Assembly: GCF_000003815.2 (NCBI RefSeq)
Contig: NC_049995.1
Coordinates: 13,978,262 to 14,042,261 of the forward strand
Length of the DNA stretch: 64,000 nucleotides
Direction: 5' to 3'
From: Branchiostoma floridae
Taxonomy: Eukaryota > Chordata > Leptocardii > Amphioxiformes > Branchiostomatidae
Shown here: positions 2,640-63,548 of the stretch, piece by piece
Layout of the letters: every line of letters begins with the position of its first letter
Position numbering within the stretch: position 1 is the first letter of the stretch
The notes under the pieces: generated by a model
The model's input: only the letters and a program-made list of their open reading frames with translations
What the model was told of the DNA's origin: nothing
Database searches by the model: none
Translations under genes and position numbers: made by a program

Positions 2640-2716
2640 AAACTCCTCTCGCTGCTCCTAGTGCAGAACGCTAGGCCAGCAAACACCACCCCTCCCCAAC
2701 AACAGACTCCAGCTGA

Positions 2717-41951: not shown

Positions 41952-44900
41952 TCATTCCTGCTCTGCCACCACGACTTTTTCTCTCTCCCGTTTCTTCTTG
42001 ATGCTGCCAGGTTTGCTGTGCCGTATTCTGTTCTGCTCCCTGGGGGAAACACAAAAATGTAAATAATGTTTTAATCAAAACCAAAACCCTTGTGATAATA
42101 CAGCTGACGGAATGCTATTATCAGGGTTCTCAAGAGGATTTTTCACAGCATAAGGGGCAAAGCCACATGGCAAGCCACACAGGGGTATGTATTGTAGGGG
42201 GGGAGGGGAATTTGGGGGATATTTCCCCATGGATTTCTATATTTGTAAACCTAAGAAACACTAAATTTTATCAAATTGAGCCAACATTTCAATTACAACA
42301 GTAAACTCAATACACACAGGGTAGGAGCCCGCTATGCTCAACTGCTCTAGCAAGAACCCTCTAAACATTACGATTTCTAGGGTAAAGGAATGAAAACTGT
42401 CTGTTTTGCACTGAGCTTGAAATGCCAACCTGCAATCAACAAAAGTTTTTGAGATAACAGTGAAAAAGAATTTACAGGGCAAATAAAACAGAAAAGGAGT
42501 ACTTGTACTACAACAAGCCCTGCTGGTGTAAGTTAATACTACATAATTGCAGAGGTAAAGCCAAGGCACGTACTTTCTCCTGCGCGAATCCTTCATAATT
42601 CTTGTCTGTCGTGTTAGATGGTGCACCTCCTTCGGCACATGGCGGTGGCGCGCGATTCGTCGCACCTGTGGGTGGTGCTGAAACTTCTCCTTCAGTTTGT
42701 CGTTGTACGACAACGCTGATTCTTCCCGCGGTGTCAACTGGGAGGGTGTAACAATATAAAGAATATGTGACATAGTCTTCTCATTGCTGGGACTCTACAT
42801 GTACATCTGTTATAATGACGATTAAAGTAGATTGTTAATAGAACTGACAATTGATGTACTGGTTTGTTACTTGCATGTTTCCTATTTTTTTTTAGAAACC
42901 CTGGCTTTCAACATGGATGAAAATGTAGAACCTTGTAAGGCCTTGCAGGGCTCAAAATACCACCTGCATATATGCAGGTTAGTGCAGGTAAAATTGGAGC
43001 TGTGCAGGTATTTCTGGTGTCTAGCTGCACCTAACCTAAATTCAGGTAGGAAGTGTGGTACAGGTAAAATTTATCTGGTGCAGGTAATTTTCAATGTTAC
43101 CTGCATCAGTGCAGGTATGTAGAAAAAATCATTTCGAGCCCTGCCTTGTAAGCTCCTCACAATTAAGCCTCTGGCTGAGTAGTTGGCCCATCTAATAACC
43201 AATATTTTAGCCAAACCCTCTGCTTATTTCACAAGAGACCAACAATGAAAGATGTCATATTTCTTCACCTTGCCTATCTTCTCAGCAGCCTTTGCCTTCC
43301 AGATTCGCACATTTGTCTCATCAGAACCGGAGAGGATGTACTTATTGTCCAGCGACCACTTGATACAGAACACTCTCTGCATACGCTTTGTGTGGTACAC
43401 CTCTCTGTAACAACAAGATTTAATGATAAATAAACAAAAAACAAGGTAATCTGAAACATGTTGATCAGTCTCTTCTGACAGGACCTGAAATGCACTGCAG
43501 AGCACAAATTCATACACACAGACAGACACACACACACACTCATTCTGGTTCATTGTCTTTTAATGCATAGAAACACAATACTTAACTCCTGAAGAACAGA
43601 AACAAATACTACATGTACACATAGACTCACACACAGACAGACACATAGAAACACAACATTCCAATGGGGTTTAACTAACCAAAAGATATAGGTTACTTCC
43701 CAAACTTAGAACAAGTTAGAAGGCTAGGAGGAAAACATGGATCTGACTAAATCATATTTCATTCCTCAAAATGGTGAGCCAAGGTTCAAAACTGTGAGCC
43801 AAAAACTTCTTCTAAGATTATATTTTCTTCTTGGTCCAACTTCAAAGCAACCAGGTTTCCTGGACATCAAAATTCAGGGCTCGAACTTAACTATGTCCCG
43901 ATGTCCCGGGGCCACTAAAAATTAGGCCGGGACAACTGAAAAATCTTTTTGGGACACTTTTGGGACAATAGGAAAATAATCAACGAATCAACATCAGAAT
44001 GTCCGATCTCCCCGCGCCCCGCGGTTGTCAGGCGTGCGAACTCTGACTTACAGTTGTTGTAATACATAATTTCTGAAAATAGGGTTGGGACAGTCCATCC
44101 TCACTTCGGGACAGTTGAAATTTATTTTTGGGACAATGCTGGGACAGTAGGGAAAAAAGTTAATTTTGAGGCCTGAAAATAAACAAACAAACAAACAAAT
44201 AGCCCTACCTGCTGCGTCCCTTGTCCAGCGGGAAGATGCGGATAGTTTTGTCGAAGCTGCCAGAAACAAACTCGCGACCAGTGGGAGAGTAGTCTAGATC
44301 CAACACTGCGTTCACATGGTCCATGTGGATGTTAAATGGGGAGGTCAGGCGTCGGATGTCAAAACTGTACAGACTGGGAAGAACATGTGGGTGAATCCAA
44401 AAGCTCTTAGCCTCATCAAGAAGGAAGGGGCAGATGTAAACGATGGTTGCAGACGAGCTGGCCACCGGTTGTCGTGCACCGAAGGAAGGCAAATGGCAAG
44501 GAAATGTCCAATTCAAAGTCTTTATTCCATTCCTGTAAAGTCTCACAATGGGTTCCAGGTAGCGGCAGCACTACTCTCAAACTATAGCAAAGTGTCCGGT
44601 CTAAAGTCTCTGCTACTGCTCACTTCTGCTCGGCTGTCTGAGAGTGGTCCCGGAGTCAGGCTTCCCGCCTCCTGACTGAAGAAATTTCCTAAGTTTCAGC
44701 TTTTATTTCCTTAACTTGTAGGATCCTCCCCCTGGCCAAATCTGAATAACAAATGTGAATTCCCCGATTTTGGTTGGTTAGAAATATGCAGAGCAGAAGT
44801 GACAGTTCATCAGAAACGGATCTTTTCCAGTTACAATTTGACTGACATTTTGCTGCGAAATAGTGTCAAAACCCCCATTTTCCCATTTATGTTCATTAAA

Positions 44901-47900
44901 GTGCTGATACCGTCAGGTCAGAGGTCTGGTTCACGAACTCACTGACCAGGTCACTACACACCCTGTTACCCCCTGCAATACTGTAATCGTGAAACCCGGA
45001 TCAATTTCTAACACTCAACAGTCATGTCATACATCGATCACCTAGGACCCGTCCATACGAAAGTAGGGAGGGTTTACAAAGGGTAGCTAATGGTTGCTGC
45101 CATACCTGGTAGGAATACAAGACTTTTCACTCAGTAAAATTAGTCATACAAGAAAAGAATAAGTACATAAAATAATTGTCTCGCACATGTCAGTCTTTCA
45201 CATCGTTCCGATCTAACACTGGGTTGTTTACTGATGTTTCAAAGTCTATTTTGCTAGATCGTGGCTTCTGAGTAGACTATGGTGACGTCGGGCGTCTCAA
45301 GTATCTATCTCTTAATTGGATGTGACCCCTGCTTTGGTTGGGGTCACTGTTGGCCCGGGACTAGGTTTGTCCAGCCCTCCCTGTCAATCACTGAAGACCA
45401 CCGGAGGAAGTCTCCTAGGTTACAACTGGTATCCTTACTTGTCAAAAGATAACATTCGGTAGGAAAGTATAGCACACATTCAGTGATTACTGTACTTATA
45501 ACACTTACAAGATATTACATTTCTTCTAGATTTCATCAACAACTTTAAGAATGGGCGACTTTTAACATATGTCTGTCCTAAGTCTTAGGCGATCTTAGGA
45601 ACCTGTGCTGTATGCCCCCATTCTGTCTTCAACAAAGATGTCAACTTCCTACCCTCGGGTTTGTGCAGTCAACGACCTGTTAACGTACCATAACTAATTA
45701 TTATTTCTAGAACTACCGAGCATCAGACTAGAGCCACAGCCTGGGAATGGTGGCAGTGAAAAAGTTCAAATGAACTGGCTTTCCCTCCGCGGGTTCTCAA
45801 ACCCAGCAGAGTCTTTATCTGTCAAAGGATCGTTTTAGAAGACGTACGTCGGCCCAGCTCTAGTCATCTGCGTGTTGGCTTATCAGCTATCACTAATCGG
45901 TCATTTGAGATAACACCCTCGCCCACAATCTGGTGTAAATGGATGGGCCGAAGTAAGGAAATACATAGGAAAACGGGGGCCGAAGTAAGTAAATACTTTG
46001 GGAGACAGCTATCATTACATCAAGCAGGCTAGGGGCCTGCTTACACCCCCTTGCTGGAATCTTGCATCGTCCCTGATGCAAAATACGTTCTTATGACTAC
46101 AGAGTACTGAGACACACTAACACCATCGAGTATAAAGAGTATATACGAATACATAAGGTTACGTTTGGTTATACATAATAATATACGATTACATACTGTC
46201 TCCTTCATCACCATCATTACCATCACTACCACCACTAGAAACGTGGCGATCAAAAAACCGAATCGTGCCTGCCCAACGGCATTAACATTGTCGTGCACTT
46301 GTCTCTTGAAAACACTAATATAGAGATAAGACTGAGGTGTCAAACTCAAACGAGACTCACAGAGTTCACGCTTGATGATAACCTACTAGGTAGAGACCTT
46401 AACTGTTACTAAATATTACGTCACCGTCGCTCACACATTCTCTTGTACTACCTCATCAGCCTACTAACGTGGCATGCTTATTGCTCAGAGAATAAATTAC
46501 ATTCTGGTCCCTTTTCCGTCAGTCACATTCACAGTCATAGTCACAGTATGGCCCAACGGCCGTCATACGACAACACATTGTACAACTATAGAGTTATAAC
46601 TGGGCTCTCATGCACTTCCTACGGGAACATGGACTTGAGTACTATTCCCGTACTTCCTTCTAATCGATACGATGGCGGAAGGAGAAGGAAAACAAGGCGA
46701 TAGAGAATTAAAAATACTTAGAGCCGCCTCAACTCGAGCGGAGGGACTTGTCCCTTGGGGACCAAAGGACGGCCTGGTGTTTGTCTTCCCAGGTCCTTCC
46801 ACGGCATTTGAGCACACCTTAGCCCACTCGGGCGTACTTCAACGATTAAAATATAACTAGTCTAGGGAAGATTCCCTTGTTCTCCATATACTGTACACTA
46901 TTCCATTCGGAACACACACTTTGAAATCAGAGGATTACTGTAAGAACCACCTGTCTTACTAGAAGAGAAGGAAGCCAGTGGACTTCATGTATAATCAAAG
47001 TTCGGCATTACTTTGTTGGGGTGGACATTCCTACCGGACCGAACAGTCATGCTGCTGGCCTGGAAAACCTGTCCGAGACGGACCAAGAGGCCTTCCAGTG
47101 CAACTTTTGGAGAACAAATAGGTACCGATTATCAAGGAACATACGTCGTCTCTAACTAACCCATCCCGAACACCATTGGCAGAGATGGAGGATTCAGAGA
47201 CACCACTGAACACACCTTTAACAGAGATGCAGGATGCAGAGACACCACTGACGGAGAATCAGAGGGCTGCGATAATAAACTATGGAGGCTGTCGTTTTCC
47301 CAGACAGAAAAGGAATTCTTCAATGGGCTGCTGAACCCGGCGGGGATAATCCCGTGGGACTTTCTCAAGAAGGGCGGTACACCAGACTGGTGACACAAGG
47401 AAAATAAGACGTCCAAGGTGTCTCCTGGCATAGCGACCACAGCTAAAGTCTCCTCAGCAGTCCACGTCAAGAGAATGGGATGCCATACAGGCGGTACACG
47501 GAAAATATGACAACAGAGAATAATAGCAGTAGCGGCCGTCCACGAAATTTCTGAGTGACCGAATACCAAGTGTAACAGCGCTACGGAACACGGGCTCGAC
47601 TACTACTTCCGCAATTTCCGGGCAACAATATTTGCCCTGCGTTTTTTCTTTCTTTTCCTTCTTTCACGGCCACGTGTAAAGTTGAAGTTGAAGTGATCGA
47701 TATAACGTACCACTTCCAATGAAACGTAACACAGAGTAACCCCTTCCTTATTCACCCCCATTGTCTACCGTGTTCAGCACTCGACTACGACTCCTGTCGA
47801 GATGGAAAGGTCTGGGGACGATGACCCCCATACAGCGAAACCTGAGCTGTCATATCTACAACGATGCCAAGGCACAGAACCCTCGCATGAGACAGACACT

Positions 47901-50900
47901 TTGCCTGTCAATCTCTAATACTAACCATTAAAACTATATGCCTAAGTCTCTTTCCGTATTCCTTCCATGTGCCCCAATTGGCTACTTTTGTGGACTCTCA
48001 CGGGAAAATCCACACTTCAATTACAGACTCATCCGACCATGCAACGGACGGAGCTCACCACACGATCATATGTTCTTAAGGTCAATCCCGTGTAACCCGA
48101 CGGCTACCGGAAAGCCAAACAAAGCCTCGAGGGCCCTCATTTACTCAATCAAACATTAGTATCTATCCCGTCCAGACAGTGGAACGGCCGTGGGTGAGCT
48201 GCAAGATTTCACACAGACAAACTACATAGCTCCCCATACTGGGCAGAGGAGTTGCTGTGGACACCAGGAGGAACACACCCTTGTTACACAAATCACAAAT
48301 GGGTCACCCAACTTCCCTAAAGGACACTCCCCCTTCCCACAATGGGCATTTACCCTCACTGCCTCGTCTTCTAAGGGCAGGGACGCTACCCCCTGGGTCA
48401 CCCATCATGACCTGACTACCCCGGTATCGTTGACTGCACCTTCCCGATTGTTTACATCACCATCTTCTTAACTAACTTATGCTAATACAGTGTAGTACCC
48501 TAATCTTATCCATAAGCTAACTTACACATAGCCTACCCTACTACGTCGGAATCTTGCTTGCATCTTGCCGTCGAGACAGGAACAGCGTTCGTGATTGTCA
48601 GGAACAGCGTTCATTTCAGGCTCAGCGTTCATACGGTCAGGAACAGTGTTCATTCCATCATTTGTTGCCATAGAAGTTGGTGGTGTCTCCACCCTTGCAC
48701 TGCCCGAAGTCGCCGTTTGATTTCCTTCTGCTTAGTTTCCATCTGATCGCGCAAGGAGTCCACCTCCCGTTGCAGTTTGCGGACGGCGACCAGCAATTCC
48801 AGCGATGACCTGACAGGTACGTGTATCACCGGGAACCTCATGCCGACAAGTCGTCGTTCAATGTCCAGGGTATGATGGTCGGGTGGCCAGAGAAGTCGGC
48901 TGGCTAGGGCATTCACGTCTTCTCGCCCTGACGTTGATCGTCTGCTACCCGACTGTCGCGCATCAAAGTTCGCAGCGTTCTGTCGAGTAGCGTACTCGCT
49001 CCATAGTAAAGCGTGCAGTTCAGGACAAGGGCGACATCCCTCTTCCTCCAAGGTCAACCGTTGAATTACCCGCTGTTGTCCCCGCAGTGTAGATTCCAGG
49101 TGCACTTTAGTGTCTCTCAACTTCTCTGCGGTCGCCACCAACTGGGGGAGAGTTTGTCTCGCGGGCGGAAGAAGACACGGGATGTATGGACGCGACGAGT
49201 CCATAGAGCTGGTCTGCCGGGAAGGGTCTGTTGGTCGAGCGTCTGCGGGTGCCTCCGGCCAGTACATGGTCGCGGAATCGTCCATCGAAGTCGCCACTCC
49301 AACTCTTCAGGGATCTGTTATAGGAGGAAGACAGAGCATACACGACAAGTCGCCCCCTTGCTTAATCCTAGTGTTAACATCAATCACAATTATCTAACTC
49401 GTACAAAAATAAAGATAAGTAGATAAATATAGATACATAGGTATATTAGGTAGAAATATAGATGTATAGATAGATACTTGATTATATAGGCTCGATAACT
49501 CGGGCCGCCTTCATTGCTTCCACTTCTAGTGTGGAGTAATCCTAATTGTGCGTCAACCCGCTATCTACCTGACTGCAATCTTTGTCCCGCCCTATTTTAT
49601 CAATACATATCCTTAACCTATAGCCTGTCTTCACGTATCCGGCAAAGACACTTGCGGACTTTATAAGATCCCGTACGCGTCTCAAAAGAACTTAACGCGT
49701 CGTTTTCTTCACTCTTATATTGCTAGTACATTTCTACCCGATCGTTCCTGTCACCACAATAGGCTCCCCGCTTGTCATCCGCCCGTTTGGGTGATGGATC
49801 ACATAACTGGATCCGGCGGACGGGATCCGATTTGGAAACCCGCCCCTGAGCAACAGGTCGATCGATTCTCTACATCCATACTGCACCATTGGAATTATCT
49901 TTGCTATTAGATTCCATCTCTTACTTTAACGTCACCAATTATCTCTCCGGCACACCTTGAACACCAGCCTTCCTCCCTATGATCTCCTGTGACTGTCCCT
50001 GCCAATATACGCCCGCCCATTTGGGTGCCCGCACGTAAAACTATCCAAGGCGATCACAATGAGGTCGAGGGTTGGCCTTGGAAGGACCAGCGCCTTAGTT
50101 TGCCTATAATCTCTGTTTCCCAACTCACGTACAACCTGCCTGTTCATCTCAACATTTCCTGCCATACTGTCTTCACCTTGCCGCACGTAGCTCCACCCAC
50201 CAATTTACGCGAGCCCAGTTTGGGTACCTACACGCAACACCGACGGGGTCGGCCCGCTGTGAACAAGGTTGCGCAAAAGACAGTACCGGTAACTAAATCT
50301 ACCACAACATCGATAACCCGTGCGGAACAATTCTCTCTAGTCATCACTTATAACATCTTCTGTGACAGAACTCCTCACAGAATCGCCATCGCCACCTCGA
50401 CACAGCCTGCCTGTCTCCCACTCGTTTGAGCCCTGAAAACACAACAAACCACTACGGGCGAAACCAGTTTTGGTATTACCACCCACTGAGCAGCGACAAC
50501 CGATCCTGTGCCTAGGACGGAGGATTGCCACGAACCAATAAATCTTCTACCAGTCTCTTCAGTTAAAATGGAACCACTGAATCGCTATTCTTCTTTAATT
50601 TAAGGACATTACGACTTCAGCACCCTAAACTACTTCAACTCACTACCAGCTAACGTTCATCAATCAGAATCCGTTACTCGTCATCCCTATATTTCGTCAG
50701 CCCGCCCAGGTGCGGACATCAGGTAATCATATAGGGTCGAAATAGCCCTTACGCCCAACAAGATTGGGTTTCCAAACCAATTAGGGGGTACTCCTCTATT
50801 CGCACGTATTGGATACCTTGGCTGCCCTTCCCTAGTCGGATCGTTGACCTGCGCCGGAGATGGTTCGTCATCTCCATCGCTAACCATAGAACCAGTAGGA

Positions 50901-53900
50901 CTTGCAACCGAAACGGCCTTCGGGCTCGTCGCACCCTCAGAATTTGGGGAAACGTATTCTTCCACCGGCCTAGGTTCCTCGTTATCACTAGGGTCACTAG
51001 AACCTTCTCCTACCGTATCAAAGAGGTAACGGGGGATAGCGTATACGTCAAAATACGCAGAGTCCTCATCATCTGGGTCGTCTGGCAACGGGTCAGCTAC
51101 CTTAGCGCTATCTACCCGGCGCCCCGACTCACGCCTTGACCTGTCTGCGGCCCGGGTCTTCTGTTCCGGATCGAAGAAACAAGGTATGATCATATTCCTA
51201 TGCAACTTCCGGGCAGGCCCCTTACCCTTTTCTGGCTCAACCACATAAACGGGGACATTGGCATCTGGCTGTTCTTTTACAATATATGGACCTCGTTCCC
51301 ACCGAAATTGGATCTTCTTCCTGCCCTTGCACTTTTTGTCCTTAACCAACACGCGTTCGCCAGGGAGGAGCGGCGCTTCTTTTGCGGTCTTATCGTAGAT
51401 TCGTTTCCGTGTCGCAGCCGCTCCGGCCAGGTGCTTCTGCGCTTGGGCGTAGACGTACTGATAGCGTTCGTGGTGTTCCCGGACCCAGTCATCGGGACTA
51501 GGTTCCCCCCCTTCGTCTTCTGGGTCAGTCCCTAACGTTAAATCTATGGGCAACCTCGCGTGTCTCCCGAACATCATATAGTACGGGCTGTAGCCAGAAC
51601 TGCTGTGCGGGGCGTTATTGTATGCATGCACTAGTTCACCAATGTATTCAGGCCAGCGTCGTTTCTTATCTACCTCAAGGGTTCCCAGGAGATCCAACAA
51701 GGTGCGGTTGAATCTTTCGCACTGCCCATTTCCCTCGGGATGATAGGGCGTGGTCGAGACTTTTGCCGCCCCATATAATTTGCATAATTCTCGAATGGTC
51801 TCAGATTGGAAATTAGCGCCCTGATCCGAATGGAGTTTACGAGGGAAGCCGTAGGGAAGGATAAAATGCCGCCAAAGAGCCTTAGCAGTAGTCAGTGCGG
51901 TCTGATCTCTCGTCGGGACAGCCACTGAGTACTTAGTGAAATGGTCGGTTATTACCAAGACGTTCTCAATTCCACTCGACGACTTTTCCAACTTCAAGTA
52001 ATCCATAGCGACTAGTTCTAACGGGGCCGACGTCTTTATGACCACGAGAGGTGGTTTGACATGCGGGACCGGGGTTTTACGCAGCCCACAGTTCATGCAG
52101 GACCTAACCCAAGAAGTCAAGTCGGCGGCCATGGTGGGCCAGTAAAACCTTTGCCTGGCCAACCCAATAGTCTTAGGAGCGCCCATGTGACCATGACGCG
52201 TATGTATCTCATCAAAAGCCTCTCGACGTAGTGCGGCCGGAAGTATCACCTGTCTAGCGCTGCTCACATGCCCGGGTCCCCAAACTAACCGATACAGGAC
52301 CCCCTCGCTCAAATGGAGTCGTCTCCATTGACTCAAAAGCCGACTAACTTCCTGCATTTCCCCAGCCAACTCCCGATGGGTGGGTTGTTTCCCCTTGCGG
52401 AGGTAATGTAGGACCCGCTCTAGCCCCGGGTCCTCCTGCTGCAACTTACTTATCCCCTCCTTATCATGACCTAACCAAGCTGTTTTTAATTTCTTATTCT
52501 TCTTCTTGGGCCTAGCCTTACGTGTCTCCCCGGTCGAACTTGACGGATCGGAACTAGCCCCTTCGTCTTCTTGGACAGTGAGCATAGCAACCGAGGTTTC
52601 CTGAGAAGGTAATCGCGACAGGGCATCGGCGTTAGCGTTCGATTTCCCCGGGCGGTACTTTATATCAAGCATGAAATTCTCCAACCTGGCAACCCATCTT
52701 TGCTCGGTCGCTCCTAGGACAGCCGTCTTTAGATGGGCCAAAGGGTTATTATCAGTATACACAGTTACTTTGTTACCCAGTAAATGTTCCTTGAACTTCT
52801 CCGTCACTGCCCACTTAAGCGCTAGAAGTTCTAATTTGAACGAGCTGTAGTTGTCCCAATTACGTTCCGCCGCCCGAAGACCTCTACTGGCGTACGCTAT
52901 GACGCGTTCTCTCCCGTCCTGCTCCTGCGACAGGACTGCACCTAGACCATCATTACTAGCGTCTGTGTACAAAATGAAGGGTTTAGAGTAGTCAGGGTAC
53001 GCCAACAACGGAGTGGACGTCAGTTTGTCACGCAGGGTGTCAAAAGCTCCCTGACACTCAGTGGTCCAAACGAATGGGACATCCTTTCTAACAAGTTCGT
53101 GTAACGGCTTGGCGATCTTACTGAACGACTCGATAAACCTCCTGTAGTAAGAAGCAAACCCTAAGAACTGTCTAACCTGTTTGACGGTCGCGGGGACCGG
53201 CCAATCCCTGAGGGCCGCGGTTTTGTCGGAATCAGTGGATACTCCTCCCTCACTAACCACGTGACCCAGATACTTAACTGCCGTACGAAACAAGTGACAC
53301 TTATCTGGACGCAATTTCAACCCATACTGATGCAGGCGGGAGAAGACCACGTCTAGTCGGGCCAATTGCTCATCAAACGTCTTAGAAAACACTATGATAT
53401 CATCTAGGTAAATTAACAGGATTTCTAGGTTCTCATCACCTAGGCAACGCTGCATTAATCGTTGAAACGTACTGGGTGCCCCGGTCAACCCAAACGGCAT
53501 TCGAGTGAACTCGAACAAGCCCATGGGACTTGTAAAAGCGGTCTTCTCCCGATCAGCTTCATCAACTTCGACCTGCCAATAACCTGCGGCTAAGTCCAAT
53601 GTGGAAAACAGTCGAGCCCCTCCTAAAGCGTCCAGACTCTCGTCTATTCGCGGCAATGGAAAAGCATCCCGATGTGTACGCGCGTTCAATTTCCTGTAAT
53701 CAACACAGAATCTAAGAGTTCCATCTTTCTTCCGTACAAGGACTACTGGAGAAGCCCACGGGCTACTACTTGGCCTTATCACGTCTTGATCTAACATAAG
53801 CTGAACGTGGGACTTAACCTCCTGGTATAGGGCCGGGGGTATTCTGCGGTAAGCCTCGCGGGACGGGGGGGAGTCACCCGTCGGTATCCTGTGCGTTACT

Positions 53901-56900
53901 ACGTTCGTATGACCAAAATCGTGCTTGTGTTTCGAAAAGACATCCTTGTGCCGAGCTAACAGGTCTTTTAGCTTGGCGGTCTGATCCTCGGTTAAACCGC
54001 TAAGGTCTACGTCCACGTCTACCGGAAGCGAACTGTCCACTTCACTAACTCCCTCTGTTCGATCCACGCTAACTGCCCTTACCTCGGCCTCCGAATCACC
54101 AGTCTGTTCTACCTGTACGTCCTGTTCCGGCACTCGCTCGACGACAAAAATCTCGCCCAACTTAGCCCTAGGGCCTAAGGTTATGTCACCGTCAGAGACA
54201 TTAGCCAGTCTAACAGGGAGCCGACCGTGCCGTACCTCGGCATAAGTCCTTGCTACTGCGATTCCTTTATGAAGGGTCCCTGTCTCAGGAGGTTCGACTA
54301 GAACAGTATACGGAGCCCCGTTAGGTCCAGGGCGCGCCTTACAGAAAAGGATCATCTCATGCCCGGCGGGAATTACCAACTTCTCTCGTTGCGGTGCCCA
54401 AACAAACCCTACTCTACCATTCTCTCCCATAGTGAAACGTGACAACTTGCCCTCGGCCTTAAGTACCCGCGTCCAAACTTCTCCCTCCGAGGTTCGCTCA
54501 GGGCCTGGGTTTTCCAGCGCCTCCTGAACCACCGATCTACAAGAACCTATAACGTTCATACCGAGGATGGCTGGCAATTTCCAGCTAGGTTGATCCTCCA
54601 CAATTAAAACTCCTACTTTCGGCATGATTCGTCCCATAATTTGGATATCCATCTCGGCACACCCTACCAAGTGGACGGGAAGGCCATTCATCGCAGTCAG
54701 CTTTACCCATGATGCATCTGTAGTCAATTGTTCCCCCCTAGCTCCGAAATTAGACTCAAAACAACTAGCTGTCATCAAAGTTACCTGGGACCCCGTATCC
54801 AACAAACAAGGTATCTCTTTCCCCTCAAATACAACATTAACCTTTAAATCCCCACCTATAGTACGCTGCGACAAACTATGTAAACTCTCAGAGCGCGAAC
54901 CTCTAAGATCCCCCCTTGCTGCGTCCTGTGAACTACCTACAGTGCGTCTAACTTGGGGGCTACTTTCACTTAAACTCTCTACCGGGCCCCCCTCCCCAGT
55001 AGAGCCTCTTAGTTTGACCGTTGGTTGTACGCCGGACCCTCGAAGATCGGGGGCAGCCCCCGCGAAGCATTAGGGCCCGCCGCCGAAAAAGGCATAAAGC
55101 GAGGTGCCGGCGACCCTGGCCTAACGGCAGAGCATTGGCGCTGCATGTGGCCAACCTCCTGACAAGAAGAACAAATAGGTCGGCCGTCCGGAGTGAACCG
55201 GTGCTGCCATGCACGATCACCCGGCCGCCCGTTATTGCTGCCATTCCGCCTGTCACTCTCACCCCAGGATGAGCGTCCCCCGTCGGTCGGACGGGGCCCC
55301 ACGGCGGCCCGGTATCGCTCTGCGTCGTCGTACAGGTGCTGGTAGGCGCGATCCGTCTGCTGACCCCTCCTCAATTGTTCCCCTAACTCTCGGTACTGCT
55401 GACGTAGCTCGTTAAGTTGCTGCTGGACGGCATCAGGTGCAGGGCGTCTCGGCTCGGTTGACCCGGCGTTGTCTCTCTCTTCAGACGTCCTTCCGCCTCG
55501 CACCCGGGCGTCTCTTGCTGAGCTACGGACAACCCCATCTGCCTCTGCCATCTCCAAGGCCTCCCTCCGTACGTCCTGGAAAGTAAGGTTAGGGTCCCTC
55601 CGGATCAACTGGCGAAGAGCCGGCCGTAAAGCTACGTCACGGAGCCCCTCTATGAATTGATCACGCAGGACCTTGTCTGGTTCTGCAATGCTTTCTGGGT
55701 CCCTGCGGAGAATCTTGCGCAGGAGGTCTTGTAATTCTAAACTAAAGGTGCGGATATTCTCGTCTCGTTCCTGCCGGCGGGCGAACAAGTTCGATCGCAT
55801 AACGGCACTAGGGGTCGTGTCTCGAAAAGCCTCACGCAGGGCGACCTCTATCGAGTGTATGTCCTCCCGATCCCGTGGGGGAAGGACGGCAATCTCCCTC
55901 CGGGCGTCACCCTCCAGATGACGCCAGATGGCGTGAGCTTGCTGGTCTCGGGGCGTTCCCCACGTATGAAACGCCCCAAACACCTCTTCTAACCAGTCTT
56001 CGACAGAAACGGCCGGGTCCGTCCCGGAGAACTTAGGCAGTCTCCGGTCCATCGGCACCACAACATGAGACGGGGCACCGGTCAGGCAGGAGGGACACGA
56101 ACGGCGCCTATCCTCTTCCGGGTCTCGCTCGGACAGCACACGGCGTCGGGGAAAGGAATAAGGCGGACGCTCCCGACCGTCATATCGAGGCAGAGAATCT
56201 CTCTGTACGGTGCGCGGTGAGCGTCCATGGATACCATTCCTCACTGAAGGGGTGTAGGTGACCCGTTCTCCATCAAACCTAAGCTGTGGATCTACTTCCT
56301 CTGTCTCCTCTATGTCGTCCATGTCGACCAAGTTCACCAAGCAGATAACGGAGTAAAAGGGAGTTTAAAACGGCCCACTTGAAACCAACGGCGGTGAATC
56401 AATAGCGACAATTCTCTCACTACACCAAAACAAAGTTCACCTACGTGGCATAGAATTTAGAACACACCCCGTACGAAAGGCAAGATAAAAGATCGTAACA
56501 ACAGCCGTCTCGTCTCGTATGGAATGACACAAGAATTGAAGAAAGAGGATAACCGAGGGGCAACTTGAAAAGGAGCAAAATCAGACAGCCTATAAATCAC
56601 CGCTCAAGGAAAACTGTGGCAATCCAATCGATGCTGAAACAACATATACTAGGCAAAATAGCAGGGTCCAGATATAGCCTCGAGGAAAACAACAATCAAC
56701 AAGAGAACCCAACAGAACTCACCATTCCTCGCCGTGGATAGTACATAAACAAAACAACCACAAAAATAACAACAATAGAGGACTAAAATAAAATAGAACA
56801 AGGACAAATCAAACAACCCTTACAAAAGAAAAAAATCCAGATCAAAAGCGAACTGTGTACGCATTCAATACTCACTGAGCACAACTGTTCAACTAAAAGT

Positions 56901-59900
56901 AAACCATAATGAAATAAAGCAAGACGCGAAACAGAGATTACAGCGCACTGGCCCTTAGCGACGCATGTCTAGATGGGATTCCCCCCTTGTCCAGGACTGT
57001 CAAGATTACTTCTATATATCACCGGAAAGAACAAGGTGCGCCAGAACTGCCGGCCGTGACGTTAAGGTCATTTAGATGAACTCCAGTCGGGCCACCACGG
57101 AACAATATGGATGCAGAGGTCATTTAAACTAACTCGCGTGTTACAAACAACAATAAAAAGTTTCCCGTTCGTGGCGGGGAATCCGCAAAAGTCCGCTTTA
57201 CTGTCTCACACTGTCTTACCGGATACCCGAAGAGCGGTCCGTTTAACCAGTCGTGGTATTGTTATTGATCACTGAATGTCTAAGGATGCAGTTAGTGAAC
57301 GATGGGGCTATCTCTAAACAGACGTCCCTGACAAACTTCTTGTCTTTTACCTCATAAAACCCCGTCTCTGGGTTGAGAATCAACCAAATATACTCCTGTA
57401 GCGTGTCAAGCCAGTTTATGAGTACCATACAGTTGCACGATGCTGGTGGGAGGCCGTATCTCGCCCAGTGTTGACAAAGATTATCAAAAAGGTCAGAGAC
57501 ACACGCTTCGTAACTGGAGTAATCTGCGAATGTTCTAGATCTAACGTCCGTACACGTTTGCGATAAAACGATCATGCGAAACCCGGGATTCCCGGACGGT
57601 CCCCCCTCTGCCATCAATACCTAACTTCTAAAACATCTATGGTAAGATATAACAACATCGGCTATTATGAAAGGCGACTGTCGTGCATCTCCATCAAACC
57701 CCCACAACAGATTCCCTTACCTTAAGATGTTCTTCGATGTTGCCTGCCGCAGTCTCGTGTCACGGTCCTGTCGTAGCTTGCTTGGTGTTGTTACAGTTCT
57801 GCTGTTCCGTTGATTTTCCTTGTTTCCACGTCGATCCTGCCGACAACGCCAAGATGTAAACGATGGTTGCAGACGAGCTGGCCACCGGTTGTCGTGCACC
57901 GAAGGAAGGCAAATGGCAAGGAAATGTCCAATTCAAAGTCTTTATTCCATTCCTGTAAAGTCTCACAATGGGTTCCAGGTAGCGGCAGCACTACTCTCAA
58001 ACTATAGCAAAGTGTCCGGTCTAAAGTCTCTGCTACTGCTCACTTCTGCTCGGCTGTCTGAGAGTGGTCCCGGAGTCAGGCTTCCCGCCTCCTGACTGAA
58101 GAAATTTCCTAAGTTTCAGCTTTTATTTCCTTAACTTGTAGGATCCTCCCCCTGGCCAAATCTGAATAACAAATGTGAATTCCCCGATTTTGGTTGGTTA
58201 GAAATATGCAGAGCAGAAGTGACAGTTCATCAGAAACGGATCTTTTCCAGTTACAATTTGACTGACATTTTGCTGCGAAATAGTGTCAAAACCCCCATTT
58301 TCCCATTTATGTTCATTAAAGTGCTGATACCGTCAGGTCAGAGGTCTGGTTCACGAACTCACTGACCAGGTCACTACACACCCTGTTACCCCCTGCAATA
58401 CTGTAATCGTGAAACCCGGATCAATTTCTAACACTCAACAGTCATGTCATACATCGATCACCTAGGACCCGTCCATACGAAAGTAGGGAGGGTTTACAAA
58501 GGGTAGCTAATGGTTGCTGCCATACCTGGTAGGAATACAAGACTTTTCACTCAGTAAAATTAGTCATACAAGAAAAGAATAAGTACATAAAATAATTGTC
58601 TCGCACATGTCAGTCTTTCACATCGTTCCGATCTAACACTGGGTTGTCTACTGATGTTTCAAAGTCTATTTTGCTAGATCGTGGCTTCTGAGTAGACTAT
58701 GGTGACGTCGGGCGTCTCAAGTATCTATCTCTTAATTGGATGTGACCCCTGCTTTGGTTGGGGTCACTGTTGGCCCGGGACTAGGTTTGTCCAGCCCTCC
58801 CTGTCAATCACTGAAGACCACCGGAGGAAGTCTCCTAGGTTACAACTGGTATCCTTACTTGTCAAAAGATAACATTCGGTAGGAAAGTATAGCACACATT
58901 CAGTGATTACTGTACTTATAACACTTACAAGATATTACATTTCTTCTAGATTTCATCAACAACTTTAAGAATGGGCGACTTTTAACATATGTCTGTCCTA
59001 AGTCTTAGGCGATCTTAGGAACCTGTGCTGTATGCCCCCATTCTGTCTTCAACAAAGATGTCAACTTCCTACCCTCGGGTTTGTGCAGTCAACGACCTGT
59101 TAACGTACCATAACTAATTATTATTTCTAGAACTACCGAGCATCAGACTAGAGCCACAGCCTGGGAATGGTGGCAGTGAAAAAGTTCAAATGAACTGGCT
59201 TTCCCTCCGCGGGTTCTCAAACCCAGCAGAGTCTTTATCTGTCAAAGGATCGTTTTAGAAGACGTACGTCGGCCCAGCTCTAGTCATCTGCGTGTTGGCT
59301 TATCAGCTATCACTAATCGGTCATTTGAGATAACACCCTCGCCCACAATCTGGTGTAAATGGATGGGCCGAAGTAAGGAAATACATAGGAAAACGGGGGC
59401 CGAAGTAAGTAAATACTTTGGGAGACAGCTATCATTACATCAAGCAGGCTAGGGGCCTGCTTACACATAGGTACTGATCCTCAAAACAGCAACACAAAAA
59501 ATTGACCAAATATGAATACAGTAGTCTTTGTAACACAAACTCTGCTGTCCAGGGCTGTAACTGGCCCCTCCCTGCTTATTGGACAGCCTGCTATAAGCGA
59601 GATTAAATCAGGCTACGAATACTAGTATGGAATAGTCTACTAAAACACCTAGCCTGTTCTGTAAAGCAGTTCAACACTTAAGTAGCCAAACATTACAGCT
59701 ACCCCAGCTCTGCCCAGCTGTAAGTTTAATGTCAGGCCCTAGCATGCTAATATGTGCATAGAACTCCACTTCTTTTCAGATGTTTTGTTTTTATGTGCAA
59801 GTCTTTGTGTCAATAACCACCAATGGCCATACTAGGGTAAAAACCTCCCTGAGTGATATGCTCGATATGTTACTTGCTCAATACTCAATATATGTACATG

Positions 59901-62900
59901 AAGAATTAGATGTATACAGACTATTGGCAGACATCAATAGTCATTCTTGACTCTAGAACCAATCCTTAATACCTTCTTACCCTTGGTACCAAGTTCTATG
60001 TCTACCGTGAAACTTACTTATGGTCCTCGTTGGCCACAGTGAAGACGAAAGCCTCCATGGGGTTCCAGGCGATCACGTTGGAGCGCATGTTGAGGATGAC
60101 CTTCCTCAGGGGGCTCGACCCCCGCGTGTCATACAGGATGATACTTCTGTCTGCTGCACAGCTGGCCAGGTAGTGTTTCTGTAAGGTTAAAGGTTAAAGG
60201 TTAGGTCATACAGGGTGATACTTCTGTCTGTTGCACAGCTGGCCAGGTAGTGTTCCTGTAAGGTTAAAGGTCAGGTCAGGTCATACAGGATGATACTTCT
60301 GTCCGCTGCACAGCTGGCCAGGTAGTGTTTCTGTAAGGTTAAAGGTTAGGTTAGGTTAGGTCAGGTCATACAGGATGATACTTCTGTCTGCTGCACAGCT
60401 GGCCAGGTAGTGTTTCTATACCGTAAGGTTAAAGGTTATGTCAAGTCATACAGGTCAGGTCATACATGATGATACTTCTGTCAGCTGCACAGCTGGTCAG
60501 GTAGTGTTTCTGTAAGGTTAAAGGTTAGGTCAGGTCATACTGACGAGGTAGTGTTTCTGTAAGGTTAAAGGTCAGGTCAGCTAGTGTTTCTATACATCAG
60601 GTCAGGTCAATTCCTACACTTATGATGCCAACTACTGTAAATTCCTTCACTTTGAAGGGTTTGGTTTTGCCATACAGGTGAAAAGGAGTTTTTCACAGTC
60701 TGATTATAAGTTCTCAGTTGAAACAATACTGTAGCACCAAAAACACAAATTTTCAGTGTCATAATTTTGCAAAAATAGCAAAAATGATATCACAGTGGAT
60801 ATGTCCAGATTTCGCAGTAAATATCTTTAGCATTTCTGTAGTTTCTCTACAGTCCGAACAAATACAGTGCCTCTCCAGGGTAATTCAGATCAAACCCTAC
60901 AGTGTTTATGCCTAGACTGAGTTCCTCTTTTAGGCATTCTTGTTCAACAGACAGCTCATAACAGCAAACAGCTCACCTCAATGGGGTTGAACCTGACACA
61001 GTTGAGGCTGTCCACCCCCCATGAGAAGGAGCGGAGTGGTTCGGCCCGGGCGTGGTCCCAGATGTCTACAGTCTGCCCACAGGTGGCAAAGGTCGTGTCC
61101 TTCCAGTGGTGGTCAATTCCGGTGAAAATATTCTGGGGGAGGAAAACACAGATAGCAGTGAGTGTAGTAGCAAAAAAAGTGTAATTTCTTCCACTGATCC
61201 CTCTTGAAATATTATCTAGGAGGAAAACAATTTCTATATTTGAGCAAAGTTTCCTGCATGCAGCAATCATTGAGAAACAAGTACACAAATCAAGTACATG
61301 TACAGTGTAACATATTTGATCAGACACAAACAAAATGAATGCAAGCTCATACACGTATACTATTGGGTTAGATGAAAGTTTAATGGGTCAGATTAAAGTT
61401 TACAACTTTGATCAAATTGAAACAAATTATTGAGTCATTGATACAAATTATCTTTCCAGCTTGTTGTACTGATGAAGAAAGAATGCTTAGGACCAAGCTA
61501 TGATACAGTCCTTTTGAGACAAACATGAATCCTGACCTTCCCCAGAATTGTATGGACCGGCTCCTCCTCCTCCCCAGCATCCGGGGATGTCAGGCTCCAC
61601 ATCTTTATGGTCTTGTCATCTCCGATCTGGGAAATAAACATGGCATGTCAACATTGATCAGCCTCCTTAATCTTCTATCTTATTACTCTGGGCTTATGAT
61701 CTTATAGCACTGTACTGAAAAATAGACAAGAAAAAAACAGAGTGCCTGAGGATGCCAGGCTCCACATGCATCTTTGTGGTTTTGTCATCTCCTATCGGAG
61801 AAAAGAAAATGGTATGTCAACATCAGTCTTCTTCTTACAGTATTGCTTTGGCCCAGTGATCTTAGGTCAGTTGAATACTTTTGCATAAAGAAAATAGAAT
61901 CTGAGGGAGAGTCTGTACCTTGGTATATACAGTTTCAGGGAGTGAATTTAGTCGATTTTAAGTTGTTTTTTATCTCCATCTACCGTTTTAACCTTGTCCT
62001 CTTGATGAATCTTTACTAAAAATGTCCTTCTATGAAGACACATAGTATACATTGTACCTCTAATAAGTACACTGTACGCCTGTTGTCAGGATGGATGACC
62101 TAAAAAGTTTGCCCATGTGAAGGGTCAAAGGTGAAAGGTTATGCCCTTACCGACAGAAAGTTGCTGTGATCCGGGGTGACGCACAGCCCGCGAACAAACC
62201 CAGAGTGCGCCTGGATCGTTCTTCTGCAGTCTCGACTGGCCAGATTCCAGATCTTGATCTGAAGATGGGAGGCAATCAAAACTTTTATATTGATGTTTAT
62301 GGAGAAAAAGTGTCTTTCGTATATCTTTATTCAGGTTGAACGAAACAATACACTGTGGACACTAGGGAGCAAGGCTGGTATTGTGGCCACAGACATATAA
62401 ATATACAATACAAAATGAACATACATTTGAATAAAAAAGGGGCCGTGCAGCCACACATACATGTAGTATGTTGTAAATTGTACCAAAGAATTCACACTAG
62501 TTTTAAGATGTTCTGACTGCAAACGTGTACAAGTTTGCAAAGCTTGTGTCTGACTTTCTCTTGATTCTCAACTTAAGAAAAAGAGTGATATGATTTGGGA
62601 CACTGATCCCTATGAGTATGAAGAAAATTTTAAAATCTAAATCATTCTATTTCTTTATTCATCCCAAAATGGCTGGGTGGTCCTTACAACTATTATCATG
62701 TAAGTCTACTTTGACAGCTTGATTACTTTTGAATTGTAACACCTCCACCTAAAAAAATCTTTTCTTCTAAAAAATAATTTCTAACTATTGACTGCAACCC
62801 CACATATTTTCAACACTTTTGAATGGTTTAAGTAAATACTCATCTAACCTCCCCATCACATGCCCCAGTCAGCAGTGTTGACAGCGACCCCGGGTGTTTC

Positions 62901-63548
62901 GCCATGCAGTTCACTCCATCACGATGTCCGTCCAGAGCACCGACGAACGGTTTGGCGAAGACCCGCTCCAGTTTGGTGGCGTTGAGCGCTCGTGTGTATT
63001 CCCGCGCCGCCTCGAAGGGATGGAGGGACGGGTCATAGTTCCTGGGTACTGTGGGGGAAAAGTCATTCATTTATTCCTGATCAAGTAACGTTACTTTGTT
63101 GGGTTGTTCAACTTTTTGAGAAAAACACCCCAGTACACAGGTACTGAAATTATTGGACTTTTGATGTATTGTTGAGCGAAAAATACATCATCCCTCTCCT
63201 GTCAAAATCTCTCTATATATAATACTTTACTTAGTTCCAAAGCAAGACTTTGATGAAAAAATAATTGTTTGCAACAGCATAGTTTTTATTTTCTGCATTT
63301 ATTTCTGCAGTGGTTGGCTCATTCTTCAAAAATCATTGACCGCTTGATCTATTTAAATACGTTATACTGGCCAGAAACGTTGGTCCATGATTTGAAGACT
63401 TTGAAGTAAACTTAAACCAGTCAGCATGCACATGCACGAACAGCTGTACAAAGGGGGAGGGGGGCGATAGGTACTCACATCTCTGGATGTCCCGCTTGGT
63501 TTCCCGCCCGTAGTCGTCCGGGTTCCGACTCAACATCTTGATCTTCAT
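41952..63548 (-). CDS. DCAF13: DDB1- and CUL4-associated factor 13 (Sof1-type WD40 protein)
   Basis: Ten exons in coding order: 63479-63548 (ATG at 63548), 62849-63048, 62151-62258, 61537-61626, 60977-61132, 60018-60178, 44209-44373, 43269-43404, 42574-42737, 41952-42039 (TGA 41952-41954). They total 1338 nt, 445 residues, the same length as the vertebrate protein, with no break. Role: nucleolar WD40 protein of the small-subunit processome (yeast Sof1) needed for 18S rRNA maturation, also a CRL4 substrate receptor. Seen: N-terminus MKIKMLSRNPDDYGRETKRD and NYDPSLHPFE; WD40 blades with DHHWKDTTFATCG, VDIWD, DYSPTGREFVSGSFDKTIRI and SGSDETNVRIWKA; C-terminal Sof1 region KEKFQHHPQVRRIARHRHVP and a Lys/Arg-rich tail, likely nucleolar targeting. 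The start at 63548 is chosen because MKIKML matches the family; an upstream in-frame ATG at 63581 would add 11 residues. Intron 6 is expanded to 15.6 kb by a Gypsy element ending 61 bp from the exon 7 acceptor. Confidence 0.97.
42945..43144. repeat. Dispersed CACCTGC/GCAGGT repeat, copy 2
   Basis: Starts CAGGGCTCAAAATACCACCT and ends CGAGCCCTG, so its ends are inverted. Inside are many GTGCAGGT and ACCTGCA motifs in both orientations. Related to 22032-22147. Sits in a DCAF13 intron. Confidence 0.7.
43876..44175. repeat. Dispersed repeat with GGGACA motifs
   Basis: Starts CAGGGCTCGAACTTAACTAT and ends near TTAATTTTGAGGCCTG, giving roughly inverted ends. Inside, GGGACA occurs repeatedly (near 43930, 43950, 43967, 44088, 44108, 44130, 44143). 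Lies just downstream of DCAF13 exon 7. Confidence 0.6.
44435..46045 (-). repeat. 3' LTR of the Gypsy element
   Basis: 1,611 bp. On the minus strand it runs TGTAAGCAGG to CGTTTACA. Antisense TTTATT at about 44520 and 44703 are AATAAA poly(A) signals in element orientation, the first about 85 bp from the LTR end. Identity to the other LTR is essentially complete. Confidence 0.93.
46046..46055 (-). other. Polypurine tract
   Basis: In element sense CAAGGGGG directly precedes the 3' LTR, the expected place for plus-strand priming. Confidence 0.75.
46056..48649 (-). other. Long 3' region of the Gypsy element, no assigned coding function
   Basis: About 2.6 kb between the extra 3' ORF and the 3' LTR. 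Short open frames occur on both strands (for example 47156-47569 minus, 137 codons), but none has a recognisable domain, signal peptide or membrane segment typical of an envelope. Confidence 0.5.
48650..49297 (-). CDS. Extra 3' ORF of the Gypsy element, predicted coiled-coil protein
   Basis: 215 residues from ATG at 49297, same strand as gag-pol, about 1.4 kb downstream of pol, where an envelope or accessory gene would sit. It has no signal peptide or membrane helix, so it is not a normal envelope. Heptad-like stretches are visible in LPQLVATAEKLRDTKVHLES (about residues 50-70) and in the C-terminal LELLVAVRKLQREVDSLRDQ with METKQKEIKRRL after it. The middle has a Ser/Arg-rich linker. The C-terminus (GWRHHQLLWQQMME) is Trp/His/Gln-rich. 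Family not recognised. It would need a spliced or subgenomic RNA. Being uninterrupted in a young copy argues weakly that it is a real gene. Confidence 0.55.
   Translation of the reverse strand: MATSMDDSATMYWPEAPADARPTDPSRQTSSMDSSRPYIPCLLPPARQTLPQLVATAEKLRDTKVHLESTLRGQQRVIQRLTLEEEGCRPCPELHALLWSEYATRQNAANFDARQSGSRRSTSGREDVNALASRLLWPPDHHTLDIERRLVGMRFPVIHVPVRSSLELLVAVRKLQREVDSLRDQMETKQKEIKRRLRAVQGWRHHQLLWQQMME
49298..50686 (-). other. Gypsy element spacer between pol and the 3' ORF
   Basis: About 1.4 kb after the pol stop. No frame with a recognisable domain. GCCCGCC/TTTGGGT motifs recur (near 49788, 50008, 50195), otherwise nothing notable. Confidence 0.45.
50687..55011 (-). CDS. pol: Gypsy Pol polyprotein: protease, RT, RNase H, integrase
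   Basis: One open frame on the minus strand ending at 50687. It is already open above the gag stop (55009-55011), in the -1 frame relative to gag, so Pol is probably made by -1 frameshifting; the first standalone start-like codon (TTG) is at 54874. Counting from there (1395 codons): aspartic protease CLLDTGSQVTLM (~23-35); RT with FSTLDLAAGYWQ, MPFGLTGAPSTFQ and LIYLDDIIVFS (catalytic Asp pair); RNase H with ILYTDASNDGLGAV and YTDNNPL; integrase with a His-His-Cys-Cys zinc site (HTRHGHMG to CMNCG) and the DDE core (VAMDYLKLE, HSDQGANF, PEGNGQCERFNRTL). The C-terminal ~250 residues are acidic and Pro-rich; no chromodomain was recognised. Every catalytic motif I looked for is intact. Confidence 0.95.
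55009..56340 (-). CDS. gag: Gypsy Gag polyprotein
   Basis: 443 residues, ATG at 56340, TAA at 55009-55011. An acidic N-terminus is followed by a capsid-like region with KFSGTDPAVSVEDWLEEVFG and WRHLEGDARREIAVLPPRDR, then QEVGHMQRQC as part of a zinc knuckle CX2CX4HX4C (about residues 390-403) that binds RNA. A Gln-rich helical segment and an Arg/Gly-rich linker precede the knuckle. The end overlaps the open pol frame. Capsid/retrotransposon-gag family by these features and position. Confidence 0.92.
   Translation of the reverse strand: MVNLVDMDDIEETEEVDPQLRFDGERVTYTPSVRNGIHGRSPRTVQRDSLPRYDGRERPPYSFPRRRVLSERDPEEDRRRSCPSCLTGAPSHVVVPMDRRLPKFSGTDPAVSVEDWLEEVFGAFHTWGTPRDQQAHAIWRHLEGDARREIAVLPPRDREDIHSIEVALREAFRDTTPSAVMRSNLFARRQERDENIRTFSLELQDLLRKILRRDPESIAEPDKVLRDQFIEGLRDVALRPALRQLIRRDPNLTFQDVRREALEMAEADGVVRSSARDARVRGGRTSEERDNAGSTEPRRPAPDAVQQQLNELRQQYRELGEQLRRGQQTDRAYQHLYDDAERYRAAVGPRPTDGGRSSWGESDRRNGSNNGRPGDRAWQHRFTPDGRPICSSCQEVGHMQRQCSAVRPGSPAPRFMPFSAAGPNASRGLPPIFEGPAYNQRSN
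56341..57242 (-). other. Gypsy leader between the ERH-like ORF and gag
   Basis: About 0.9 kb, A-rich in forward orientation, with no supportable frame. It may hold the packaging signal and whatever allows gag to be translated downstream of the first ORF. Confidence 0.45.
57243..57617 (-). CDS. ERH-like protein encoded before gag in the Gypsy element
   Basis: 124 residues, ATG at 57617, about 240 nt after the 5' LTR, so it is the first ORF on the genomic RNA. Residues 15-104 line up by eye with Enhancer of rudimentary homolog, a ~104-residue eukaryotic protein: MIVLSQT matches the first strand; SRTFADYSSYEACVSDLFDN matches the invariant R-T-[YF]-A-D-Y then E-C pattern; INWLDTLQEYIWLILNPETG matches the [FL]-x-[FW]-[IL]-D-x-L helix running into a strand; and FYEVKDKKFVRDVCLEI matches the Y-x-x-x-K-x-W-[IV] region and last strand. 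The alignment is from memory. Known: ERH is a homodimer that serves mRNA-processing, RNA-elimination and small-RNA complexes. Inference: a host-derived gene captured by the element. The first 14 and last ~20 residues are extra. Confidence 0.6.
   Translation of the reverse strand: MMAEGGPSGNPGFRMIVLSQTCTDVRSRTFADYSSYEACVSDLFDNLCQHWARYGLPPASCNCMVLINWLDTLQEYIWLILNPETGFYEVKDKKFVRDVCLEIAPSFTNCILRHSVINNNTTTG
57834..57851 (-). other. Primer-binding site, tRNA-Ser type
   Basis: In element sense TGGCGTTGTCGGCAGGAT begins three bases after the 5' LTR. Its complement ends in CCA and matches the T-arm/acceptor end of animal tRNA-Ser (the ATCCTGCCGAC part; the rest differs slightly). Confidence 0.7.
57855..59465 (-). 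repeat. 5' LTR of the Gypsy element
   Basis: 1,611 bp, the partner of 44435-46045, upstream of gag in element sense. It should hold the promoter; no TATA box was assigned with confidence. Confidence 0.93.
60179..60610 (-). repeat. Tandem copies of the DCAF13 exon 6 acceptor side
   Basis: Five or six units of about 75-100 bp repeat the exon bases TCATACAGGATGATACTTCT, then GCACAGCTGGCCAGGTAGTG, joined to the intron motif TTTCTGTAAGGTTAAAGG. True exon: 60018-60178. All copies lie 5' of it in gene direction. Each carries the same TTACAG acceptor. Confidence 0.9.
61741..61870 (-). repeat. Single diverged copy of DCAF13 exon 4 acceptor side
   Basis: GATGCCAGGCTCCACATGCA, then TCTTTGTGGTTTTGTCATCTCC at 61751 onward, matches exon 4 (61585-61626) with a few changes, and intron similarity continues (ATGGTATGTCAACAT). 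It lies 5' of the true exon. Confidence 0.8.

Follow-up and report, generated by a model that had tools for sequence, protein, structure and literature searches.

An intact ORF homologous to the near-invariant eukaryotic protein ERH is located after the 5′ LTR and in front of gag in a Ty3/Gypsy retrotransposon of the lancelet Branchiostoma floridae, and we are highly confident that it is an ERH-derived gene that selection has preserved in the element. The element was found in a 64,000-nucleotide stretch of genomic DNA, here called the window, in which it occupies 15,031 bp on the minus strand (44435..59465). According to excerpts of PMC10605862, the size and fold of ERH have barely changed across eukaryotes and no related protein is known. 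The element appears to have taken up this protein, altered some three quarters of the residues and maintained the gene under selection.

Structure of the element

The element is ordered from its 5′ to its 3′ end as follows:

57855..59465, minus strand: 5′ LTR, TG...CA, 1611 nt, from the match of the LTR pair
57834..57851, minus strand: primer-binding site (PBS) TGGCGTTGTCGGCAGGAT, after the 5′ LTR
57615..57833, minus strand: leader from the PBS to the ERH-like ORF, with four short uORFs, from copy comparison
57243..57614, minus strand: ERH-like ORF, 123 aa, ATG to TAA, without intron, from translation, Pfam, copies and selection
55009..56322, minus strand: gag, 437 aa; narrowly below cut-off for both PNMA (24.7 bits, cut-off 25) and the zinc knuckle (19.3, cut-off 20.8)
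50687..54874, minus strand: pol, 1395 aa; RT, RNase H and integrase above cut-offs, a protease-like stretch below its own
48650..49285, minus strand: 211-aa ORF after pol, no family above cut-off
46046..46055, minus strand: polypurine tract AGCAAGGGGG, adjoining the 3′ LTR
44435..46045, minus strand: 3′ LTR, matched stretch with 1 mismatch in 1615

The LTR pair, PBS, polypurine tract, gag and pol, the last in the order protease-RT-RNase H-integrase, assign the element to Ty3/Gypsy. The 120 pol relatives listed are Gypsy-type, and among them the most identical come from Branchiostoma lanceolatum (82%) and B. belcheri (71-77%). We take the primer-binding site, TGGCGTTGTCGGCAGGAT, to be of tRNA-Ser type. 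Since the LTRs are identical at 1614 of 1615 positions the insertion is young, and the preliminary description of a young element is borne out by this single difference in 1615. The flanks, TATG (59466-59469) and TCTG (44431-44434), agree at three of four positions, and an exact target site duplication, for which 4-6 bp would be expected, is absent despite the near-identical LTRs. Minus-strand exons of DCAF13 lie on either side, at 62840-63070 and 42261-42773, and the element, in sense orientation to them, is therefore probably intronic in this gene. The 211-aa ORF at 48650-49285 sits at the env position; it matches no family above cut-off and lacks a clear membrane segment.

The ERH-like ORF runs on the minus strand from a start ATG at 57614 to a stop TAA ending at 57243, and begins 219 nt past the PBS of the 15.0-kb element. 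It had been described as a 124-residue ORF at 57243..57617, between the 5′ LTR and gag. The position and the intact frame stand, with the gag (437 aa) and pol (1395 aa) ORFs also open, and the length is corrected to 123 aa, the count of 124 having included a TTG just upstream of the ATG. The full ORF has N- and C-terminal tails around a domain of ~95 residues, compared with the 100-110 aa and no added domain expected of ERH. Its length alone is unremarkable, being reached by 12% of Markov-1 sequences modelled on the region. Codon composition of the ERH frame is unlike that of gag and pol and gives no coding signal (-0.045 bits per codon, a score reached or exceeded by 26% of non-coding pieces). 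The status of the ORF as a gene thus follows from homology and selection, to which length and codon composition contribute nothing.

Homology to ERH

Homology to ERH, as proposed in the preliminary description, is confirmed by sequence comparison: the ORF matches Pfam PF01133 at 32 bits (cut-off 25, E 1.4e-7), and two other copies of the element pass the same cut-off. A home-made profile built from 10 unique ERH domains scores the ORF at 27.7 bits, and none of the 306 other six-frame ORFs of at least 60 aa in the window exceeds 5.3 bits. The motifs first picked out by eye, namely RTFADY, the Cys of E-x-C, the W-L-D helix and the K-[FW]-[IV] end, all align with ERH. The alignment spans residues 11-104 with one gap, located in the α1-α2 loop, which is also variable among known ERHs.

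The identity to known ERHs is low, at 20 of 91 aligned positions between the window copy and a vertebrate ERH and 22-23% between the transposon (TE) ERH and either host ERH, as might be seen if the likeness were due to chance or convergence. The single-sequence AF2 model likewise did not recover ERH: it was poor (pLDDT 49.5), and Foldseek gave a best E of 1.8 with no ERH among the best 50 of 106 matches. When ERH relatives were included in the alignment, the modelled fold was ERH-like, β-β-α-α-β-β-α, the arrangement given for ERH in excerpts of PMC10605862. The fold check proposed for this protein is thus positive with relatives and uninformative from the single sequence, and in these models the ERH-like fold appears only when ERHs are in the alignment. 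Against chance stand the profile score of 27.7 bits, compared with a maximum of 10.6 across 20,000 shuffles of the same protein, and two other copies that hold the family's conserved His3, absent from the window copy, and pass PF01133 independently. Chance resemblance was rejected on the shuffle result, and we regard a chance or convergent origin of the likeness as negligibly probable.

A search of a protein collection (5.8 billion) with the ORF as query returned three word-sharing candidates, none at E <= 10, which does not imply absence from other lancelets. A profile of worm and human ERH matched 1004 proteins, the best 120 of which are all ordinary ERHs. No relatives turned up in viral contigs, for which the queries were the ERH-like ORF, pol and an alignment of 10 pol rows, or in phage records.

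Further copies in the host genome

We searched the host assembly (513,431,437 bases) with the ERH-like protein, scoring the best candidates only, so that counts are lower bounds. The protein matched itself and at least eight further sequences, all on contig C6 and in at least six places. Two of these are open over the matched stretch (residues 1-123, 76%; residues 1-113, 73%), and the rest are broken or partial. Six older ERH-bearing places, together with many decayed related gag/LTR pieces, lie at 19.6-27.9 Mb of this contig, which may be a region retaining old insertions. With PF01133, three TE copies in the host genome score above cut-off (39.6, 33.5 and 31.4 bits), as do two ordinary ERH genes on contig C1. 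Each of these host genes comprises three or more coding exons, and they share 75-78% identity with mouse ERH.

Four copies on contig C6 (L018-L021) preserve the order LTR end, PBS, leader, ERH ORF. The ERH ATG is retained in L019-L021 and gone in L018, and the ORF of L019 is open with its ATG. The ORF is therefore neither absent nor broken in all other copies, and its lineage shows past purifying selection. The PBS is mostly kept in the C6 copies, with one extra base and with further changes in L019 and L020. PBS and leader together (57615-57851) are 84-87% identical to the four copies while dS in ERH is near 1, which suggests that the leader RNA is itself constrained.

In two ERH-bearing C6 copies the gag pieces are 35-37% identical to that of the window element, compared with 69-75% for ERH. 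A gag search of the assembly gave the window element as the only match above 50% identity, the next best being 41% and short pieces reaching 47%. The LTR has eight further matches longer than 1 kb, at 92-97% identity, on other contigs, so that recent relatives seem to persist chiefly as LTRs. For nine related gags taken from the 46 gag matches, the 8 kb upstream yielded no ERH (916 ORFs of at least 40 aa, best E 0.56), and ERH therefore seems particular to this lineage. The polyproteins of the 120 pol relatives listed contain no significant ERH match (best E 0.36). In two copies, at L020:6052-6054 and L023:3907-3909, the stretch after ERH runs directly into pol residue 468 at the same junction, as if one deleted element had spread or been duplicated.

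Selection on the ERH frame

Comparison of the window copy with L018, L019, L020 and L021 gave dN/dS values of 0.124, 0.120, 0.128 and 0.134 (bootstrap upper limits 0.21-0.24) at dS near 1.0-1.1; the four comparisons share one long deep branch and amount to one independent contrast. Codons with gaps or stops were excluded in L020 and L021. The same DNA read in two shifted frames gave 1.1-2.0, and since the ERH frame stands at 0.12-0.13 against values of about 1 or more, we conclude that the ORF has been a working gene of the element. Between the window copy and L018 there are 16, 15 and 46 differences at codon positions 1, 2 and 3. A separate estimate from the protein alignment gave 0.124, 0.139 and 0.755 for three pairs. 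Among L018, L019 and L020 themselves dN/dS is 0.8-1.1, with limits of 0.18-4.4 that are wide because few differences separate these copies, and L018 and L019 differ at 5, 5 and 5 sites at the three codon positions. As read from these sequences, the pattern is one of constraint while mobile and decay after insertion, as for a mobile element's working gene.

A recent retrocopy of host ERH or of an ERH paralog, carried without function in one copy of the element, would also be without introns, and the status of the window element as the only gag match above 50% identity would agree with such a passenger. We consider this very improbable, given that older copies hold the ORF at the same place and that the TE protein is only 22-23% identical to host ERHs which are themselves 75-78% identical to mouse. 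In a simulation of neutral decay, 7/8 dimer residues were kept in none of 2000 runs and the ORF stayed open in 26 of the 2000. Recent capture was rejected on the dN/dS of 0.12-0.13 in the ERH frame.

Residues kept and replaced

Excerpts of PMC10605862 list the ERH dimerisation residues, in human numbering, as I5, L7, Q9, R17, Y19, D21, L70 and Y79. Seven of the eight are identical in the window copy (Tyr19 is Phe), compared with 13 of 83 aligned positions elsewhere (Fisher P 6.6e-5, a generous value because the dimer residues also anchor the alignment). Worm ERH-2 keeps 5/8 dimer residues and 36/91 positions overall. H3, L7, Q9, D66 and Y79 are called perfectly conserved in host ERHs in the same excerpts. 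The window copy keeps L7, Q9 and Y79 and has Arg at H3; D66 is Glu in this copy, L018 and L019, H3 is present in L018 and L019, and Y79 is Phe in L018.

The groove of fission yeast Erh1 holds Mmi1 (excerpts of PMC6335422), and we placed its positions on the lancelet proteins by numbering offsets of 6 and 2. On this inferred mapping, both host ERHs have V-G-I-F-F-L in the groove, where the TE copies have S-D-N-L-[W/Y]-L. A second partner face reads D-S-[F/Y]-N-P in the hosts and E-I-L-G-V in three TE copies. Ten of the 11 mapped partner-face residues differ from the hosts, although some changes, such as Asp to Glu, are mild and several of these positions differ in worm ERH-2 too. In 49 columns the three TE copies agree with one another and differ from both host proteins and from mouse, an agreement that represents two lineages because two of the three copies are 88% identical. 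The alignments thus suggest that the dimer face stayed while the partner faces were replaced and then held. In the TE ERH, dimerisation would be naturally uncoupled from partner binding, a situation difficult to obtain with a near-invariant protein.

Predicted splicing

Splice sites were scored with average base frequencies, and two predicted sites frame the ERH ORF:

57712..57720, minus strand: predicted splice donor AAG/GTAAGG, first intron base 57720; a score reached by 4 of the 7834 GT sites across the window
56782..56801, minus strand: predicted splice acceptor ahead of gag, exon starting at 56782; second best in 55000-59466

Because the predicted donor precedes the ORF and this acceptor precedes gag, the ERH ORF may be intronic in the gag mRNA. 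The donor at 57720 is intact in four of five copies. The best-scoring predicted acceptor of 55000-59466 is at 55158, inside gag. A weaker predicted acceptor at 57636 and donor at 57219 flank the ERH ORF, which could on these predictions form its own exon; the donor-like site at 57219 is weaker or lost in other copies.

Possible functions of the TE protein

These data allow a tentative account of capture, expression and interference with host ERH, to which we give, mechanism included, slightly less than an even chance. An ERH mRNA would have been copied long ago into a lancelet Ty3/Gypsy element, capture from mRNA being suggested by an element ORF without introns and host ERHs with at least three coding exons. 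The captured sequence would then have become an accessory gene between PBS and gag. Selection in the element would have kept the dimerisation residues, and both known partner-binding faces would have changed to their present state, alike among TE copies. The protein would be made from unspliced or alternatively spliced element RNA, enter the nucleus as an ERH-type dimer and pair or compete with host ERH. As a result, element transcripts would escape the splicing, degradation or silencing carried out by host ERH complexes. Excerpts of PMC10605862 report that in human cells ERH silencing releases endogenous retroviruses and SINEs, but not LINEs, and that H3K9 trimethylation falls in some domains. 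We favour interference with host ERH complexes because ERH silencing frees endogenous retroviruses in human cells.

More specifically, the TE protein might pair with host ERH and disable ERH-dependent nuclear RNA decay, small-RNA processing or heterochromatin at the element's own copies, which we regard as plausible and clearly short of probable. The earlier proposal of a decoy or dominant-negative subunit fits, in sequence terms, a dimer face that was kept and partner faces that were replaced, but a role as an adaptor for the element's own RNA would fit nearly as well. The kept dimer residues may serve only the fold or a homodimer, and the held TE-specific partner faces suggest a partner of its own over a mere decoy; both points weigh against interference.

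Such an adaptor would leave host ERH untouched. As a homodimer it would join a partner specific to the element, be it Gag, the 211-aa ORF or an export factor of the host, to control splicing, export or packaging of unspliced element RNA. We hold this, too, as a real but less than even possibility. It agrees with both mapped faces having been replaced in a way common to three TE copies, whose lineage has a dN/dS of 0.12-0.13. The location of the ORF in the intron of the predicted gag mRNA, with its donor intact in 4/5 copies, would suit control of spliced and unspliced RNA. The candidate partner is, however, only putative, and tight co-evolution with Gag is not obvious when gag is 35-37% identical and ERH 69-75%.

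A role in the virion or in replication appears unlikely; the ERH fold would here have been co-opted for a structural or chaperone function in the particle, apart from host ERH pathways. The ORF adjoins gag and has been kept over a long divergence, and three groove positions are Ser, Asp and Asn, as such a role might allow. No sequence feature ties the protein to particles, however, and ERH was undetected within 8 kb upstream of nine related gags.

If interference with host ERH is the correct reading, the element would encode a counter-defence protein built from a housekeeping silencing scaffold. Since ERH silencing frees human endogenous retroviruses, it becomes a testable question whether ERH restrains chordate retroelements and whether the elements fight back through ERH.

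Relation to known systems

ORFs that precede gag include Ogre ORF1 and epsilonretrovirus orfC, and VANC is a plant transposon-encoded anti-silencing protein. VANC, likened here by description, may be a functional parallel as a TE protein directed against host silencing, although both the element class and the protein are different. The host ERH family (PF01133), which includes C. elegans ERH-2 as a diverged paralog, has the domain, the fold of the alignment-based model and the dimer residues in common with the TE protein, and ERH-2 also has its short α1-α2 loop. Relative to host ERH, the TE protein is encoded in a retrotransposon, is intronless and tailed, has 22-23% identity and has its partner faces replaced.

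A comparable arrangement in the excerpted literature is an orchid Ty3/Gypsy element with an AlkB-type m6A RNA demethylase ORF (PMC9289625), likewise a large Gypsy that kept a captured host-like RNA-pathway protein. The orchid demethylase is proposed to affect host surveillance of TE RNA; it is a plant enzyme with in vitro tests, whereas the lancelet protein belongs to a non-enzymatic scaffold family and is known from sequence. Excerpts of PMC5408684 describe bdelloid rotifer LTR retrotransposons, which also show an extra non-envelope ORF kept in animal LTR families, but their ORF3 resembles an exonuclease or esterase, whereas the lancelet element has ERH in front of gag. Accessory ORFs also occur in plant LTR elements (PMC7264820), with no ERH among those in the excerpt. 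No report of ERH in a transposon was found in the open-access literature, as judged by titles and the beginnings of abstracts. On these partial sources, captured accessory ORFs in LTR elements are already known and ERH as such an ORF appears to be new.

Other features of the window

A second retroelement lies at 462-3733 of the window, with an ORF containing an RT domain followed by a 254-aa ORF. By eye, the 254-aa ORF resembles a tyrosine recombinase, and we take it to be DIRS-like. A repetitive stretch at 34283-34914 is open on both strands, encoding PDDDN-type and LSSSG-type peptides.
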